This document shows positions 41,368-55,975 of a stretch of DNA of 64,000 nucleotides, one piece after another. The notes under the pieces are model-generated. The model was not told the DNA's origin, did not search any database, and saw only the letters and a program-made list of their open reading frames with translations. A program made the translations under genes and the position numbers. Source of the stretch: Haloferula sp. BvORR071 (GTDB lineage Bacteria; Verrucomicrobiota; Verrucomicrobiia; Verrucomicrobiales; Akkermansiaceae); the NCBI RefSeq assembly GCF_000739615.1, contig NZ_BATP01000059.1, positions 62,001 through 126,000 of the forward strand. The letters run 5' to 3'. How positions within the stretch are numbered: the first letter of the stretch is position 1; every line of letters begins with the position of its first letter.

Positions 41368-41441
<74 letters not shown>

Positions 41442-41450
41442 CCTCTTTCA

Positions 41451-48146: not shown

Positions 48147-49376
48147 ATGATGGGAGGCTACTGGAATTATTATCACGACGATTACGATTGGGATGATTCG
48201 CGAGAACCATGCCGATCGGATCCCCAAATGACGCTCGAAGAGCTGCAGAAAGCCGGAAGCTCAGAAGAGGAAGCACGAAAATACGTCGATTCGGGATATG
48301 TCTACAATGATACTTCAGGGACGATTATCGATAGGTATTATGGTGGACTGCTTTTGAGCACCGATCTGAGGACAAGATTCGAAATTGGTGAGTTCGGAAA
48401 GTGGCCGGCATGGTTGAACAACCGTGTTTGGGTGAAAGCGGCAGCTTCTTGGGCGGATGTATACCGTATTGCCGAGGAAGCCGCTTCAAAGACTCGCAAG
48501 CGACTTCTCTTTCGGGGGCAGGGCCGGCATTATTTGATCAATCGGGCTGCTCCCAATCCATGGTTCTTGGTGGATGGGATCGGTGAGATTTCGCTAGTCC
48601 CATCTTTGTGGAGGAAGATGTTGAGCAGATTTACAAACAAGTTCCCCTCATTTCAAGGTCTATCGCTCTTGGAATGGTCGTTGATCTTGTATAACGGTTT
48701 TGATCTGGAAGATATTAAGAGGCGGCATCAGGAGAAGGTCGATAAGGAGGGATGGGGGGAGATGTCTCTAGTGGCAGAGGCGACGGCCATGGAGGAATGC
48801 GATGACCCGGTCTTGGCGGAATTCGGTAAGTTTCGTTTGGATCTGCTTATGGGCATGGAGCACAACCTCGCAACACTATTGGCGACCCTCCTGCAGCACT
48901 ATGGACTTCTGTCCCCAGTTCTTGACCTCACCTCATCTCTTGAGGTCGCGAGGTTCTTCGCCACTCATAAATTCGAGAAAACGGAGGCTGGGTGCAGCTA
49001 CGAATTTAATGGTACCAATGGACGACAGGCCGTGATTTATGTGCTGCGGGAGGAGCATCGGGAGATGCAGGCCCACGAGTCGCAAGATCCTATCTTGAAA
49101 AAGCTAAAACCTCTGCGTCCTCAGCGACAGCACTGTGTTGTTTCGACCTCCAGCGCCTACGCGTTGAATCTACCTGCAGACTTCTTAGAGGGCGTGATTC
49201 TCCTCGATTTTGACGACGCTTCCAGCGGGTGTGAATATGGCACGCACTGCTTGCTTCCCGACGAATCGGAAGATCGGTTTCTCGATGCGCTGAAAAAAAC
49301 AAGATCCACAAAGGATCGGATCACCTGTTTCGGAAAGCAGAGCGAATCCCCATTGTCTCCGTCCAGGTTCACATGA
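48147..49376 (+). CDS. FRG-domain protein
   Basis: 409 residues. The FRG signature is KRLLFRGQGRHYL at about residues 118-130, with the matching LLQHYGLLSPVLDLTSSLEVARFFA from about 247. It starts with an aromatic/acidic tail (GGYWNYYHDDYDWDD), which is unusual. FRG proteins occur often beside defence systems; their activity is unknown. Base use is clearly AT-richer than the flanking genes, which suggests separate acquisition. It lies 27 bases after hsdS and 18 before the next gene, all on the plus strand. Confidence 0.85.
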   Translation: MMGGYWNYYHDDYDWDDSREPCRSDPQMTLEELQKAGSSEEEARKYVDSGYVYNDTSGTIIDRYYGGLLLSTDLRTRFEIGEFGKWPAWLNNRVWVKAAASWADVYRIAEEAASKTRKRLLFRGQGRHYLINRAAPNPWFLVDGIGEISLVPSLWRKMLSRFTNKFPSFQGLSLLEWSLILYNGFDLEDIKRRHQEKVDKEGWGEMSLVAEATAMEECDDPVLAEFGKFRLDLLMGMEHNLATLLATLLQHYGLLSPVLDLTSSLEVARFFATHKFEKTEAGCSYEFNGTNGRQAVIYVLREEHREMQAHESQDPILKKLKPLRPQRQHCVVSTSSAYALNLPADFLEGVILLDFDDASSGCEYGTHCLLPDESEDRFLDALKKTRSTKDRITCFGKQSESPLSPSRFT

Positions 49377-49394
49377 TCTCCCAAGCAGTTCACA

Positions 49395-50351
49395 ATGTCC
49401 GATCTCAAACTCTTCAAACTCCTTCCTGGCCAGGTCACGGAACTCCCGGTGTCCTCGATGGCGCTGGAGAAGTCGCTGCAAAGCCTGATCGAGAAGCATC
49501 TGGAGGTCTTCCTCGGGGTGAGCTTCCTGGCTTCCGAGTTCTCGACGGGGCCGAAGACGGGCGGGCGGATGGATACGCTGGGGATCGATGAGAACGGGGC
49601 GCCGGTGATCATCGAATACAAGAAGGCGACGAATGCGAATGTGATCAACCAGGGGCTCTTCTACCTGGATTGGTTGATGGACCACCGGGCGGATTTCAAG
49701 TTGCTGGTGCTGGAGAAGTTCGGGGCGGAGAAGGCCGCGGCGATCGATTGGGGCAGCCCGCGGCTGCTGTGCATCGCGGGGGATTTCTCGAAGTACGACC
49801 TGCATGCGGTCTCGCAGATCGGCCGGAACATCGAGCTGATCCGGTATGCGAAGTATGGCGAGGATTTGCTGGCGCTGGACCTGATCAACCGGACGACGGC
49901 GCCGGCTTCGTCGGAGGGGACGGGGATGGGTACTGGCACGGGGACCGGCAAGGGAAGTCCAGGCGGGACGACGGCGGTGAAGCCGGCGAGCGATTACAAG
50001 TCCGTGAGCGAGTATCTCCAGCAGGCGGACGCGGAATTGACGGATCGCTTCGAGAGCCTGAAGGCGATGATCCACGAGATGGGGGATGATGTGGAGCTCA
50101 AGACCCTGAAGTACTACTTCGCCTTCCGGCGCTTGAAGAACTTCGCCTGTGTGGAGGTGCACACGAAGACCCGCAATCTGCTGGTCTTCGTGAAGCATCC
50201 CGATCCGGCCTCGGTTGAGGAGAAGGGCTTTGCCCGGGATGTGACGAACATCGGGCACTTCGGCACCGGTAACCTGGAGCTGACCCTTCGGTCCAAGTCC
50301 GATGTGGAGAAGGCCCGATATCTGATCGAGCTATCCTACGAGGCGAACTGA
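49395..50351 (+). CDS. DUF91/DUF5655 putative nuclease
   Basis: 318 residues. The N-terminal half carries a PD-(D/E)xK-type core: RMDTLGIDENGAPVIIEYKK (Asp, then E74-x-K76), followed by NQGLFYLDWLMDHRADFKLLVLEKFG. This matches DUF91/NucS-like endonucleases. After a Gly/Thr-rich linker (GTGMGTGTGTGKG), a DUF5655 domain follows (DRFESLKAMIHEMGDDVELK ... FACVEVHTKTRNLLVFVK). The pairing is often seen near type I R-M. Probably DNA-cleaving; targets unknown. GC is high like the chromosome, unlike the FRG gene. Confidence 0.8.
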   Translation: MSDLKLFKLLPGQVTELPVSSMALEKSLQSLIEKHLEVFLGVSFLASEFSTGPKTGGRMDTLGIDENGAPVIIEYKKATNANVINQGLFYLDWLMDHRADFKLLVLEKFGAEKAAAIDWGSPRLLCIAGDFSKYDLHAVSQIGRNIELIRYAKYGEDLLALDLINRTTAPASSEGTGMGTGTGTGKGSPGGTTAVKPASDYKSVSEYLQQADAELTDRFESLKAMIHEMGDDVELKTLKYYFAFRRLKNFACVEVHTKTRNLLVFVKHPDPASVEEKGFARDVTNIGHFGTGNLELTLRSKSDVEKARYLIELSYEAN

Positions 50352-50381
50352 ACTTCTGCGAAAACCTATCCTCCACATCCG

Positions 50382-50783
50382 ATGCCCGCGATCCGAACGA
50401 AGTGCGTGACCGAGACGATGGACCGCAAGCATGACGGCCTGCGGATTCTGGTGACCCGCTACATCCCGCGCGGCGTGCGCGGCACCCGCTACCAAGTGTG
50501 GATGCCGAACCTAGCCCCAAGCGAGGCACTGCTGAAGTCCCTCCAAGGCGGGAAGATCCCATGGTCGCAGTTTGCGAAGTCCTACCAGGCGGAACTCTTC
50601 GAGGGCGGGACTATCGATAAGCGGAACCCGCGTATCAAGAACCACGGCCAGAAGTTCACCCTGCGTCTGCTGAAGGAACTGGCGGCCAAGCAGCCGGTGA
50701 CGCTGATGTGCAGCTGCGAGCCGGATGAGGAGAGATGCCACCGGCACCTTTTGAGGAAGGTCCTTGGCTCGTCAAAGATTTGA
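50382..50783 (+). CDS. DUF488-family protein
   Basis: 133 residues. The end has the DUF488 signature CSCEPDEERCHRHLL, with two Cys and a CH pair possibly binding metal. The preceding part includes KSLQGGKIPWSQFAKSYQAEL and TIDKRNPRIKNHGQKFTLRLL. The family is common near restriction and repair genes; its function is not known. It follows the DUF91 nuclease by 30 bases on the same strand, so it may be the last gene of the defence transcript. Confidence 0.8.
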   Translation: MPAIRTKCVTETMDRKHDGLRILVTRYIPRGVRGTRYQVWMPNLAPSEALLKSLQGGKIPWSQFAKSYQAELFEGGTIDKRNPRIKNHGQKFTLRLLKELAAKQPVTLMCSCEPDEERCHRHLLRKVLGSSKI

Positions 50784-50870: not shown

Positions 50871-51677
50871 ATGAATTGGCCCCCAGATGGAAAGAAAGAA
50901 GCTTCCTGGCTCCAGAGACCCGAGTATCGAGGTCGAGTTTCGATGGTGCCGATGCCAGGAGGCGGAGGGGTGTTTCTCGATCGCCGTGAAGCTACTTCGG
51001 GGATGCTTTTGTGGTATGGCCCTGGAAAGTTCGAGGCGTTCAGTCCGGTGCAAAACTACAAATTTAGTAGCCTGGCGAAGGGCAAATATCATGATCCGAG
51101 GGACAAGCCCATGGGTCCCGGGAAATGGCCGAAGAGCGATTTCTTGATGCTTCTTGCAGCGCGAGGGGGCCAAATCGAGGGTGAGTCTGACCACCCGGAG
51201 TTCGATGCTCGATCTTGGAGGCAACTTGCCGTCCTGACGAGGCTGGCTGAAGTCGAGCGAAGGCGCGGCGGCCCTGTTACCGACGCGCATCGAAAGGGGG
51301 CGTTAGAGATGGCCGAGAGCAAAGAAAAATTCGTCGAATATGTCGGCCACATGCTTGTAAGGCGATTGCGAGGTAAAGAGGCATCGAGTGAGTTTCAGCG
51401 GATAGCCGACTGGCTGGTAAAGATTGAGAAAATGGAGGAGGAGGGGGTACCGCCAGAGTACCAGCGATTTTTCCGAGCGGTCGAAACTGCTGCGAGAAAC
51501 ACCGCCGCTGCGGGCTTCACTCTCCCTGTGCCGGTTCAGAAGGACGTAAGATCGCTTTTTGAAGCCGGTCTTTCTGGGGATCAATTGGGAGCTGGCACCG
51601 GCTTCCGCTCGCTGTGTAAGCAACTGCGATTTGATTGGCTGCCGTCTGGGGGGCGAGGTCCCGAGCGGCCGGAATAG
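50871..51677 (+). CDS. hypothetical protein in the mobile module
   Basis: 268 residues, soluble, no recognisable domain. The first 110 residues are Gly/Pro/Trp-rich; the last 150 are helical (LAVLTRLAEVERRR, FVEYVGHMLVRRLRG, QRIADWLVKIEKMEEEG). Lower GC than the nuclease gene before it. It starts a same-strand run of five genes ending in a serine recombinase, so it is probably part of that element. Confidence 0.5.
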   Translation: MNWPPDGKKEASWLQRPEYRGRVSMVPMPGGGGVFLDRREATSGMLLWYGPGKFEAFSPVQNYKFSSLAKGKYHDPRDKPMGPGKWPKSDFLMLLAARGGQIEGESDHPEFDARSWRQLAVLTRLAEVERRRGGPVTDAHRKGALEMAESKEKFVEYVGHMLVRRLRGKEASSEFQRIADWLVKIEKMEEEGVPPEYQRFFRAVETAARNTAAAGFTLPVPVQKDVRSLFEAGLSGDQLGAGTGFRSLCKQLRFDWLPSGGRGPERPE

Positions 51678-51744
51678 GTGCTAAATTGTAGCTGATTTGC
51701 CACACAGGCATTTTTCTGCCGCTCGCTGCATCGTGCGCGGCGAA

Positions 51745-51972
51745 ATGAATAACAAAACGCTTGTTGGCGCAGAAGCCTGCATATCTGCGGTGTTTCCGGA
51801 TGAAGCATCGCGGCCAAGCCTGCGGAGTTTCCGGGAATGGCAGGCTCGGGGCTACATTCCATTCGTAAAAGTGGGAAGGCGGACCTTCTTTGACCCCCAA
51901 GAGGTAAGATCGGCAATTGATCGCCGCTTCCGTGTTAATCCGATGCCGGCTCAAGGAGGTAGCACGCCATGA
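51745..51972 (+). CDS. excisionase-like small DNA-binding protein
   Basis: 75 residues from the ATG at 51745 (MNNKTLVGAEA); a longer frame starts at 51697 without homology-like composition. The middle, SLRSFREWQARGYIPFVKVGRRTFFD followed by PQEVRSAID, is the winged-helix pattern of excisionases and MerR-like initiators: a recognition helix, then wing residues VGRR-FFD. Such proteins bend DNA at att or origin sites. The stop overlaps the next gene by ATGA. Confidence 0.7.
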   Translation: MNNKTLVGAEACISAVFPDEASRPSLRSFREWQARGYIPFVKVGRRTFFDPQEVRSAIDRRFRVNPMPAQGGSTP

Positions 51973-52715
51973 GCCCTAACGAAGAGATCCGTTCGGACGA
52001 GGTGGCGGCCTCCAGTAAGCTTGGCGACTCCGGCTGTGAGATTACCAGCGCTGTCAGTTTGCCCCGAAAAGCCGAGCCGCAGCTCAAGGACATCGCAGAA
52101 AGGGCCAATCGGAAATACAGGACGGCGAAGGACCAGCTTCAAAGCTTCTTGGGCCACGCTCGCGATTGTGGCCATGAATTGAACCACGCCAAGCAACTGG
52201 TGCCGCATGGCGAATGGGGAAAATGGGGGGAGGCGAACTTCGAGGGGTCCGACCGGTTGGCCCGTCACTACATGTTCCTTGATGCAAATTGGCATCGGAT
52301 TTCCGATTTGGATCTTGGATCCCTCGGGGAAGCGATCGCGACAATCCGCTTCCTAAAGTCGTCCCCGGACTCCTGCGAAGACGAGCTTGGGGTTATGGAC
52401 GATGAAACGCCGCCCTTTGCAGAGCTAGAATCAAACAAGGGGGAGACGCCAGAAATGCCGGCGGCGCAGGTGATGGAAGCGGTGGCGACCGTGGAGCGCC
52501 CTCCGGAACCGCTCCAAGTAACACCATGCAGCAAAGCGGCGCGCATACCTGTTGCTACGACGGCGAAGGTGATCGCAATTCTGGAAAAACGTATCGAGAC
52601 CGGCCCGACCGAAGCAGTGCGGGAGGAAATTCGCGTGATCCTGGCGTTTTGTCGCGATCGGATATCGCGGTTGCCCTCGCCCTTGATTGGGGATGCCGAA
52701 CTGCCTCTCTTTTAG
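51969..52715 (+). CDS. DUF3102-like protein
   Basis: 248 residues. Residues about 45-125 match the DUF3102 arrangement (FLGHARDCGHELNHAKQLVPHGEWGKW, then NFEGSDRLARHYMFLDANW): a helical domain frequent on plasmids and phages, of unknown role. The rest is an acidic linker with a C-terminal helix (VREEIRVILAFCRDRISRL). Coupled by ATGA to the excisionase-like gene, suggesting a joint DNA-binding job. Confidence 0.65.
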   Translation: MSPNEEIRSDEVAASSKLGDSGCEITSAVSLPRKAEPQLKDIAERANRKYRTAKDQLQSFLGHARDCGHELNHAKQLVPHGEWGKWGEANFEGSDRLARHYMFLDANWHRISDLDLGSLGEAIATIRFLKSSPDSCEDELGVMDDETPPFAELESNKGETPEMPAAQVMEAVATVERPPEPLQVTPCSKAARIPVATTAKVIAILEKRIETGPTEAVREEIRVILAFCRDRISRLPSPLIGDAELPLF

Positions 52716-52861
52716 ATCGAAAGCGCCCGCGGCGTTGGCGGCTGTCCTAAAGACGCTGTGACCGCGGCCATGGCTCCATTCGGGCTGGCTTCCCTTGCTG
52801 CTTCTCTCTGGAGCGGCAAGGGGAGCCGGAGGGGGAAAACGACAAACCATGTTTTGCGCGA

Positions 52862-54595
52862 ATGCAATTCGACGATTTCGAGGAACCGAACTCTTTCCGT
52901 GAGGAGCCGTACCCTTGGTCCGACCTCGAAGGCTGGGAGGACTTCTGGAACGAGGTCCGATCGGTTTACTCGATGGAACACCTCAGGCTTGTACTAGGGG
53001 TCCATCTCAGAGCCGGCGAGGCCGAAACATGGTCAGACGTGGTGGGGTTCGTGTCTCATTTCCTGACCGGGCAGGTTGTGAATCTGGGTGCTGCTAGAGA
53101 GTGGTTCCAAGAGCGGCTGATACAGGACCAAGCGCTCTGTGCGAAGGACAACGCGGGGACGTGTGACTCAATCATCGCACCACTCTGTGAGGCGATCACT
53201 GAAGGAGCTACATCGATGCCAGCCAGCCTGGCCGCGGATTCGCCCGGCACGGAAACGAGTGAAAAAATCACCGCCATAGAACCGGAACCGGAAAAGTCAC
53301 CGACATGGAATGGGAAAAAATCACCGACATGGAGCGAGGAAGAATCACCGTCCGACCAAGTACCAGTGGGGTTGTGGTTGGTGGTGGATCGTGAAGATTT
53401 AGAGAAGCGTTTGCGGCGATTCCAGCAAGGCGAGTGGTGTACGCGCGTAAGACTCAGCGGGCTGCTGCTGTTGATCGGCTTCATCGCGGCCAACACGACT
53501 CGACGCGGATTTTCCGTATCGGCAAACTTGGCTCAAAGCTACATCTCGGCGATCAAGCGGGCCCGATCGAGAACCACAATTCGCGAGCCCTTGGCGGTGC
53601 TAGAAAAGATCGGCGTGATCGAAATGGTTCGGGAGGCGGTGTTCGGGAAACACACCTGTAGTTCGGCGGCCTACCGGATCCCGGCTTCCTTGCTTAAGAA
53701 GAAGAGGCGGGGAGCGATCGTGGTGACTCCCAATTTGGAAGCTAAGCTTGCCATGGCAGAGCCTCGCAAGGAGCGCCGCTTGAGCGCGAAGCAACCATGG
53801 AGGGCACGACTCCGTGTAACGCTCGGGAGGGTGAGCTTGTCGGCAGCGTGTGAGAGACTCGCACTAGAGCTCGTTCTTGAGAAGCCGGCGGGGGCGAAGG
53901 GCGTGAAGCGCGTCTTGGAGATTTTGAAGGGGGCGATCCCCGCCAAGGTTGGCGCCGATCAAGCCGGGCACATCACCACGAGCTTCAGCAACTGCCCCAG
54001 GGAGTTGAAGCCGCACCTCCTCATTGCCGGGGAGGAGGTCGGGCTTTGCGACATCACGGCAGCCCATTTTTGCATATTGCCGCGGGTGATCCGGGACGGG
54101 CTTGAACAAGCCGGGGTGTCCGATTGCTGCGAGGGTGACACGCAAGCCTTGTGGGAGGAACACGGGCGTTTCGTCGAGTTGCTCAGCACCTCCGACCTTT
54201 ACCGAGAGTTCAGTGAGGATCCGCAGTCAGACGCCTCGCGGAGGGCCGCGAAGGAGCGACTTCTGAAGGTTCTGAATTTGAAGACTCAGTGGGCCCGAAA
54301 GGATCCTACCTATCGCCGCTTCCAGGAAAAGTTCCCGCTCATCGTAAAGTTCATTGAACAGGTGAAGCGTCAAGACCATCGGGCGATCCAGGCTCCGCTC
54401 AGGCACTACACCGCCATGGCGGTCAATCGAGCCCTAGTCCGCCTCCAAGAGGCGGGCGTGGATGCCATTCCCGACTCGGACTGCTTGATTTGCCCACAGC
54501 GGCATCGGGACCTCGTTTGCCGCATTTTAGGCAAGGAGATATTCCTTCTATCTGGGGTCCGGTGCATCGTCGGAGGACGAAGGTTCCAGCCTTAG
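52862..54595 (+). CDS. putative replication protein with family-A-polymerase-like motif order
   Basis: 577 residues. Residues 1-170 are acidic with a short internal repeat (KSPTWNGKKSPTWSEEESP). Residues 175-290 are basic and helical, winged-helix-like (LRRFQQGEWCTRVRLSGLLL, SAIKRARSRTTIREPL). The last 230 residues follow a polymerase-like sequence of motifs: FSNCPRELKPHLL, then LCDITAAHFCILP (candidate motif A Asp), RRAAKERLLKVLN, FPLIVKFIEQVKRQDH, and VDAIPDSDCLI (candidate motif C Asp). This order is found in uncharacterised plasmid and integrative-element proteins and recalls family-A DNA polymerases. That reading is by eye and unproven. Lower GC than the chromosome. Confidence 0.6.
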   Translation: MQFDDFEEPNSFREEPYPWSDLEGWEDFWNEVRSVYSMEHLRLVLGVHLRAGEAETWSDVVGFVSHFLTGQVVNLGAAREWFQERLIQDQALCAKDNAGTCDSIIAPLCEAITEGATSMPASLAADSPGTETSEKITAIEPEPEKSPTWNGKKSPTWSEEESPSDQVPVGLWLVVDREDLEKRLRRFQQGEWCTRVRLSGLLLLIGFIAANTTRRGFSVSANLAQSYISAIKRARSRTTIREPLAVLEKIGVIEMVREAVFGKHTCSSAAYRIPASLLKKKRRGAIVVTPNLEAKLAMAEPRKERRLSAKQPWRARLRVTLGRVSLSAACERLALELVLEKPAGAKGVKRVLEILKGAIPAKVGADQAGHITTSFSNCPRELKPHLLIAGEEVGLCDITAAHFCILPRVIRDGLEQAGVSDCCEGDTQALWEEHGRFVELLSTSDLYREFSEDPQSDASRRAAKERLLKVLNLKTQWARKDPTYRRFQEKFPLIVKFIEQVKRQDHRAIQAPLRHYTAMAVNRALVRLQEAGVDAIPDSDCLICPQRHRDLVCRILGKEIFLLSGVRCIVGGRRFQP

Positions 54596-55348
54596 CTGGC
54601 GAGTGCCCCGACCACGCCGACTAGCCTTTGGAACGATCATCCGACCGCAGAGGTGGTTCGGTGGCCCCTTGAATCCATCCTCGTAACCGCGTGCGGTCGG
54701 GCAATATGCACTATGAAGCACCTAATTTGGGCCGAATGAAGGGTTACGCTCGTCGAAAAGTCGTTCACGGGCGCCCGCGCCCCCGCGCGCGAGGGACGGC
54801 CTCGAGCACGGCCGGTCTGGTGAAGGGCAGTTTGCCACCTGCGGACGGTACCAGTGTCCACTTTCCCGCCGCTTTTGCAGACGTCGAAGAATGCAACGGA
54901 ACTTGGTCGAGAAACTGGGCTTTTGGGGCCTTTTGACGCGTCGGGGACATGTGGCCGGCGCACGCGCACCCGCGTGTGTGTGCGTGCGCGCGACGGAGAG
55001 GATTGGGGAGTGGCATTGGGAACCGTGATCGATCGTTCGATGCGTTGCAGGGACCCGCGTGCATCACCTCCAGGAGAGCGGCGGGACGTCGACCTTCTCG
55101 GGCTTCAGCTCGCAGGTGATTCGTCCGGCTCGTGCCACGGCTACCGCATTGAGGCCTCGTGAATCGGTGAGACCGCTCGCCATCGATTTTTGTGGGCTAG
55201 TTGGGTCCAAACAATGGGTTCTCCGTTTTTGGGCCGTCTTCAGCTTTTACTCCGTTCGCTTTTGCCGCTTGGCGAGGGTTCAAGAAACCATGTGATTGTT
55301 TGGACCTTTCGAATTGCCAAGTCCGTTGGCCTCGGCGAGGGTTTTGCG
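54596..55348. other. 750-bp gap with GC hairpin, Z-DNA-prone tract and inverted repeat
   Basis: No gene is convincing. It holds a GC-rich palindromic tract (54770-54795), an alternating purine-pyrimidine run at 54957-54993 that can also pair with itself (GCGCACGCGCAC against GTGTGTGCGTGCGC), and a perfect 12-bp inverted repeat at 55204-55215 and 55295-55306. Its place between a replication-like gene and a recombinase gene is where an origin or a res/att site would be. Confidence 0.5.
55204..55306. repeat. perfect 12-bp inverted repeat ahead of the recombinase gene
   Basis: GGTCCAAACAAT at 55204-55215 and its exact complement ATTGTTTGGACC at 55295-55306, 79 bases apart. The second arm ends 42 bases before the recombinase start. 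It could bind the recombinase or a regulator, or form a stem in RNA. Confidence 0.7.
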
Positions 55349-55975
55349 GTGGAAGTCCCCGTCTGCATACTGGTTCGAGTCTCAACCGATGAGCAGAACA
55401 ACGCCCGGCAGGTTTCCGAGCTGGAGGCAGTAGCTGAACGCCATGGCTGGAAGGTCGTGGAGGTGATCCGAGAAGATGGGGTAGGTGGGAGCAGTCGCAT
55501 CCGGCCCGGGCTTGCGCGAGCGCTACACTTGGCGGAGAGCAAGCTTGTGCGGAAGGTGATGGTGCACGAGGTTTCAAGGTTATCCCGACATCCAGCGGTA
55601 CTCCACGACGCGGTGGAGCGCCTAAATGAGGCCGGGGTTTCGCTCTATTGGCACTCACAGGCCGCCGAGACCCTCTTGCCTAGCGGGAAGCGCAATCCGG
55701 CTACGGGCATGATGTTGGCGATTCTGGGCGAAATGGCGCGCTACGAGAAAGAGAACCTGGTAGAGCGAATCCACTCCGGGCTTGCCGAGGCACGGCGGAG
55801 AGGTCGGAGGCTGGGACGTCCCGAAGGAACAACGCTTTCAGCTGCCGATCTTCTGGCCAAACACGAGGATATTGTGAGGGCCCTCCGGGCGGGCAAGCCT
55901 CTACGAGATATCGCAGCTCGAACAAAGAAGGGTTTGAGCACGGTGAAGCGCGTTAAGGCGGCTCTCGTCGGCTGA
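55349..55975 (+). CDS. serine recombinase (resolvase/invertase family)
   Basis: 208 residues from a GTG at 55349, chosen because it puts the catalytic serine at S12 (LVRVSTDEQN) as in resolvases; the frame is open back to 55190. The domain continues with EVIREDGVGGSSRIRPGL, VMVHEVSRLSRHP (Arg pair), GMMLAILGEMARYEKENLVERI (E helix). A C-terminal HTH follows (GRPEGTTLSAADLLAKH, LRDIAARTKKGLSTVKRVK). Small serine recombinases act on paired res or inverted sites, so it may resolve or flip this element. Last gene of the island on the plus strand. Confidence 0.9.
   Translation: MEVPVCILVRVSTDEQNNARQVSELEAVAERHGWKVVEVIREDGVGGSSRIRPGLARALHLAESKLVRKVMVHEVSRLSRHPAVLHDAVERLNEAGVSLYWHSQAAETLLPSGKRNPATGMMLAILGEMARYEKENLVERIHSGLAEARRRGRRLGRPEGTTLSAADLLAKHEDIVRALRAGKPLRDIAARTKKGLSTVKRVKAALVG

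Follow-up and report, generated by a model that had tools for sequence, protein, structure and literature searches.

The polymerase gene and its surroundings

The window, the whole stretch of 64,000 nucleotides that was analyzed from Haloferula sp. BvORR071, enters an integrated island at a tRNA gene and includes the following main features.

41368-41443, + strand: tRNA-Met(CAT), the integration site and left end of the island (ARAGORN; Rfam RF00005)
41393-41442, + strand: left att repeat of 50 bp, the 3' part of tRNA-Met
51697-51972, + strand: small helix-turn-helix (HTH) protein, excisionase-like, conserved upstream of the polymerase gene
51969-52715, + strand: DUF3102-like protein between the HTH and polymerase genes (Pfam PF11300, E 2.1e-6)
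52862-54595, + strand: polymerase gene for a divergent TV-Pol of 577 aa, a putative initiator/primase-polymerase
55190-55975, + strand: serine recombinase of the resolvase/invertase type (Pfam PF00239, E 2.9e-30; PHROG 125, E 1.2e-35)

The open reading frame at 52862-54595 (+ strand) is real, forming an intact gene of 577 codons, and is present as a single copy in its own 7.8-Mb genome. No meaningful match of the protein was identified in Pfam, NCBIfam, and PHROGs, and weak matches to Suc_Fer-like, HSP90, and PDE2 entries were dismissed as noise. The search by tblastn against plasmids and phages gave no match, and neither the single-sequence pattern scans of viral and genome contigs nor a profile search of PDB detected a relative.

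Relatives and the link to TV-Pols

Relatives were found by genome searches within the order and family to which the window belongs. The subfamily is rare (four genomes of roughly 1,130 searched), and its four known loci include one without the polymerase part. Two relatives are full-length: the G037 protein (L002, identical with L016; 431 aa) is 34% identical to the window protein, and the G702 protein (L010, identical with L017; 433 aa) is 34-35% identical. The third, of G006 (L003), is truncated, with the pre-polymerase region 44% identical and the polymerase part lost. Within L003, the segment 1171-2130 retains the HTH-like region and the four DNA boxes described below, and a restriction-enzyme-like helicase reading frame begins where the polymerase part is lost. 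Two further candidates were dropped, L004 as a weak match antisense to an efflux gene and L015 as a chance pattern match.

In genome searches, the subfamily profile reached two canonical-looking TV-Pols, L012 in G714 (E 1.0e-5) and L031 in G707 (E 5.8e-7), both of which were identified as such from their own motifs. L031 carries DIKNSQP, RDKAK, LQRMEA, and HDG, and is adjoined by a tyrosine integrase. Upon comparison by hhalign, the subfamily matched the alignment of L031, L018, and L012 at 97%; the match extends over 345 columns and takes in the part preceding the polymerase domain. The window protein is about 17-19% identical to canonical-looking TV-Pols. The named founder that was searched for, that of Microcystis phage LMM01, was not reached by a thin profile. 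On the basis of these sequence comparisons, the window protein is a divergent member of the TV-Pol family. Since this family was described in 2008 (PMC2579912), the suggestion of an "undescribed" small polymerase in the original prediction does not hold.

L018 (2767-3960; LR756501.1) is an unannotated TV-Pol gene in a very large metagenomic phage genome, and five further phage genomes (595-735 kb) contain similar unannotated TV-Pol genes. L060 (2824-4398; NZ_CP060788.1), annotated as hypothetical, is a canonical-looking TV-Pol on a free Hymenobacter plasmid that possesses its own, separate gene for replication initiation as well as one for a recombinase.

Catalytic motifs and predicted fold

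The hallmarks of TV-Pols are the hairpin Arg, the motif-A Asp, RxxxK, and the motif-C Asp (Iyer et al. 2008; PMC2579912), together with a conserved Asp in the fingers module and a thumb of two antiparallel helices (PMC2579912). Features of the window protein are as follows.

53354-53797, + strand: helix-turn-helix/winged-helix-like region (aa 165-312), candidate box-binding domain
53744-54565, + strand: A-family polymerase domain (aa 295-568; model range 131-404 in VIA-align)
53999-54001, + strand: R380, beta-hairpin Arg, invariant in five sequences
54050-54052, + strand: D397, motif A Asp, invariant in five sequences
54239-54253, + strand: R460-x3-K464, fingers RxxxK motif, invariant in five sequences
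54479-54481, + strand: D540, motif C Asp, invariant in five sequences

CPRELKPHL is located at residue 378, LCDITAAHF (motif A) at 395, RRAAKERLL at 460, KFPLIVKF at 490, and PDSDCLI (motif C) at 537, in agreement with the places and the A-family-polymerase-like order proposed originally. Because the relatives at about 34% identity (L002/L016 and L010/L017) keep CPRELKPHL, D...AAH, RxxxK, FP, and PD[ST]D unchanged, these motifs are beyond chance. In an alignment of the window protein with four others, including the canonical-looking pair L012 and L018, R380, D397, R460, K464, F491-P492, and D540 are invariant. Motif C thus lies where it had been placed, while its catalytic residue is specified by this alignment as D540, the latter Asp in PDSD and the one aligned to the D of the usual HD. 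D445, the candidate fingers Asp, is shared by the three close relatives and missing from L012 and L018.

Residues 165-577 were modeled with AlphaFold2 without templates, from three sequences. The model is modest (pLDDT 58.6 overall, pTM 0.50), with pLDDT of about 70-84 (about 75) in the polymerase part and low confidence elsewhere. In the thumb region, two helices are predicted before the hairpin, where pLDDT is below 50. A-family polymerases ranked first in Foldseek, with the best E only 0.012, and the best match by VIA-align gave Z 10.6 over 233 residues at 3.9 A. Each of the 50 VIA-align rows was an A-family DNA polymerase or POLRMT, with Z of 9.0-10.6 over 226-250 residues; since these rows are Foldseek's own candidates, the result supports but does not prove the fold. 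An A-family-polymerase fold is supported by model and structure comparison for residues ~295-568, and the unrelated fold that had been named beforehand as refutation did not turn up. The fold match and the alignment together suggest that D397 and D540 may share one site.

The HTH-like region is kept in four relatives, one of them without the polymerase part. When this region was folded alone, pLDDT was 53 and its fold matches did not exceed Z 5.0, and the nuclear-receptor rows among them are not credible. This model did not confirm the winged-helix-like nature suggested for the basic region, which is still plausible.

Four DNA boxes inside the polymerase gene

A repeat search revealed 24-nt repeats within the polymerase gene, which were absent from the original prediction. 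Four boxes were recognized upstream of the region coding for the HTH-like part.

53264-53279, + strand: iteron box 1, AAAATCACCGCCATAG, in a codon phase unlike boxes 2-4
53293-53308, + strand: iteron box 2, AAAGTCACCGACATGG
53317-53332, + strand: iteron box 3, AAAATCACCGACATGG
53341-53356, + strand: iteron box 4, AGAATCACCGTCCGAC, the most degenerate, retaining the core AATCACCG

The same geometry (0/+29/+53/+77) was found at all four loci, namely the window, L003, L016, and L017, even though the proteins of the three box-bearing relatives are 34-44% identical to the window protein. The codon phases of the boxes are 2, 1, 1, 1 at each of these loci; the spacing of 29 is not a multiple of three, so that box 1 stands in a different frame from boxes 2-4. 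Since box 1 is out of frame in every case, the likeness among the boxes cannot be that of a protein repeat. In a recoding test, the protein was fixed, codons were redrawn from the same gene, and the columns identical across the four boxes were counted; the observed four-box identity was reached in 0, 1, 0, and 3 of 20,000 trials for the four loci. Judged by codon phase and recoding, the boxes are signals at the DNA level, and most likely they are iterons of an origin inside the polymerase gene.

Boxes 1-3 are alike at 12.7-15 of 15 positions within a locus, but at 8.7-10.3 between the two lineages, and the box sequences sort accordingly, with AAAATCACCGACATGG and AAAATCACCTACAAGG on one side and AAAAAGCCCCTTCAATGG and AAAARCCCCYTCAGTG on the other. 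This pattern is as expected for sites that change together with their binding protein; shared ancestry or repeat homogenization could also produce it. No second cluster of the window's box was detected anywhere in the 7.8-Mb genome, and an AT-rich unwinding element was not evident near the boxes (G+C 52-58%). The window gene carries four in-gene boxes, whereas two canonical-looking TV-Pol genes, L012 and L060, were checked for such repeats and gave none. What is new here is the in-gene boxes of a TV-Pol, the family itself being already known.

The integrated island and its relatives

The left att repeat is identical to a truncated tRNA-Met copy located beyond the window (G000:C8:158148-158197). 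The distance from att to att is 54,755 bp, and the island of ~54.8 kb thus spans from 41393 to G000:C8:158197 (window coordinate 96197, outside the window). Beside the truncated downstream copy, and oriented away from it, lies the gene for a tyrosine integrase of 440 aa, which is 44% identical to the integrase of G037; the same 42-nt tRNA-Met fragment precedes the G037 integrase. In G010, tRNA-Met is joined directly to the right flank of the island (91% over 91 bp). In G003 (L055), tRNA-Met is followed by a terminator similar to the left end of the island in the window, in contrast to G010, and either terminator may be the ancestral one; the G003 pattern suggests either that another element used the tRNA-Met site or that the ancestral order was the reverse. 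The att repeats and the tyrosine integrase explain the island ends better than integration by the serine recombinase alone, which was rejected, and they support an integrative mobile element, in line with the "integrated plasmid" of the original prediction.

In one relative, the G702 element, two perfect 50-bp copies of the 3' part of tRNA-Cys stand 5,529 bp apart; between them lie genes for an integrase, for a protein of 207 aa, and for an HTH protein, together with the TV-Pol gene, which is the only recognized replication gene of this 5.5-kb element. The small HTH protein of the window gave an HTH_17 match that was weak and below the cut-off; it is 54% identical over 59 aa to the protein at the same position in the G037 element.

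The island is large and may be composite. A type I restriction-modification system is part of its cargo, along with the serine recombinase and an FRG-domain protein, as are catalase and amylase-like genes and those for MOSC-domain-like and FAD proteins. The MOSC-like/FAD pair recurs in two genus mates in other surroundings. The FRG-domain gene (48147-49376) directly follows hsdS and is followed by a DUF5655 gene (49395-50351) with a weak NucS/Shedu-nuclease-like part; both are possible extra defense genes. The serine recombinase, ~600 bp downstream of the TV-Pol gene, probably has its true start internally, as the resolvase domain begins at about residue 58. Its catalytic domain gave a weak SCCmec CcrB match (E 6.5e-15), far below the family cut-off, and its possible function is to resolve dimers of the element after excision. 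No helicase was identified by Pfam among the neighbors at 48147-50783 and 50871-55975; small OB-fold partners would escape this sequence-based scan.

Proposed role of the polymerase and its boxes

Taken together, the replication protein of this tRNA-integrating island is proposed to be a divergent TV-Pol with an N-terminal HTH-like region, for which the boxes inside its own gene serve as origin iterons (rough probability 0.6). Homology, catalytic residues, the DNA-level nature and geometry of the boxes, and the element ends are all read from the sequence. The tyrosine integrase would excise the island, and the TV-Pol protein, through its HTH-like part, or a partner would then bind the four boxes and open the DNA there. 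The polymerase domain of the same protein, which is probably a primase-polymerase, would start synthesis at the boxes and make the first strand, perhaps by self-priming as observed for CCPol with MP (PMC7581432). As no helicase was recognized next to the polymerase gene, it would be supplied by the host. An origin within the polymerase gene would make a very small, testable replication system, with one gene plus integrase and HTH on a 5.5-kb element. A more far-reaching and tentative proposal, held with less than even confidence, is that the single gene constitutes a complete replicon core, combining initiator, primase-polymerase, and an origin with co-evolving iterons, the first for an A-family polymerase.

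A different role of the boxes, rather unlikely but the most serious competitor, is that of a regulatory operator or recombination-control site, used for autorepression or bound by the small HTH/excisionase or by the integrase, with the TV-Pol replicating from elsewhere or only repairing or filling in the element. In the elements of the window, G037, and G702, the polymerase gene is indeed closely preceded by a small HTH gene, and G006 has an analogous HTH. At the G016/G017 loci, no more than about 20 nt separate the boxes from the start codon, where an operator could be placed. The boxes are, however, ~400 bp into the gene in the window and ~330 bp in L003, which is a poor position for an operator, and their grouping by lineage parallels that of the HTH region in the polymerase protein, a correspondence confounded by ancestry.

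It is improbable that the polymerase domain is catalytically dead or a plain DNA-binding scaffold. The replacement by S/T of the usual His in motif C (PD[ST]D versus HD), the loss of the polymerase part in one relative, and the presence in related elements of A-family-like relatives without catalytic Asp (PMC10061031) are in its favor, but no change is seen in either Asp residue, in the hairpin Arg, or in RxxxK among sequences of about 34% identity. That the repeats arose at the protein level, as a K-S-P-T linker with the DNA similarity secondary, is highly improbable: boxes 2-4 do share one frame encoding K-[STA]-P-[TS], but box 1 is in another frame at all four loci, and the loss of DNA identity on synonymous recoding contradicts such an origin.

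Comparison with known systems

The proposed origin-containing TV-Pol gene resembles three described systems. As in the TV-Pol family at large (PMC2579912), a minimal A-family domain without nuclease domains follows a variable N-terminal domain, and the hairpin Arg, two palm Asp residues, and RxxxK are shared; the context is also alike, being a mobile element with a serine recombinase, a lambda-type integrase, and restriction-modification genes. The window subfamily differs in motif A, which reads D-[IM]-x-A-A-H where D-I-x-N-S-[QH]-P is usual, and in motif C, which reads PD[ST]D instead of HD.

CCPol of SCCmec, a distant TV-Pol member, is a demonstrated polymerase and, together with MP, a primase that synthesizes primers at an iteron origin (PMC7581432). 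As of 2020, the other TV-Pols were without biochemical characterization (PMC7581432), and no description of an origin for them was found in the literature searched. The SCCmec paper was the only one found to treat a TV-Pol and iterons together, in a search covering few subscription journals. The CCPol-MP-Cch2 module (PMC7581432) resembles the window system in that serine recombinases and an A-family polymerase occur on one mobile island, together with an iteron origin (a proposed one in the window), a likeness of organization, sequence similarity between CCPol and the window protein not being established. The SCCmec iterons are intergenic, downstream of the helicase gene, and bound by Cch2 (PMC7581432), whereas the window boxes are in the polymerase gene, and the helicase and MP of the SCCmec module have no recognized counterpart beside it.

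A parallel to the boxes is found in pSK41, whose rep gene harbors four Rep boxes and encodes a RepA_N-type Rep with a winged-helix N-terminal domain (PMC5703833), although RepA_N (PF06970) was not matched in the window protein and its three relatives (Pfam, E up to 1). In both systems, four boxes are in the coding region, a winged helix binds DNA (in the window protein, only as a candidate), and the rest of the protein provides, or is proposed to provide, the link to priming (PMC5703833). The boxes of the window gene precede the HTH region, unlike those of pSK41 Rep, and the window protein has its own polymerase domain where pSK41 Rep has a DnaG-binding domain (PMC5703833). If the proposal is true, this gene would be the A-family counterpart of the pSK41 arrangement, its own polymerase replacing the recruited host primase.
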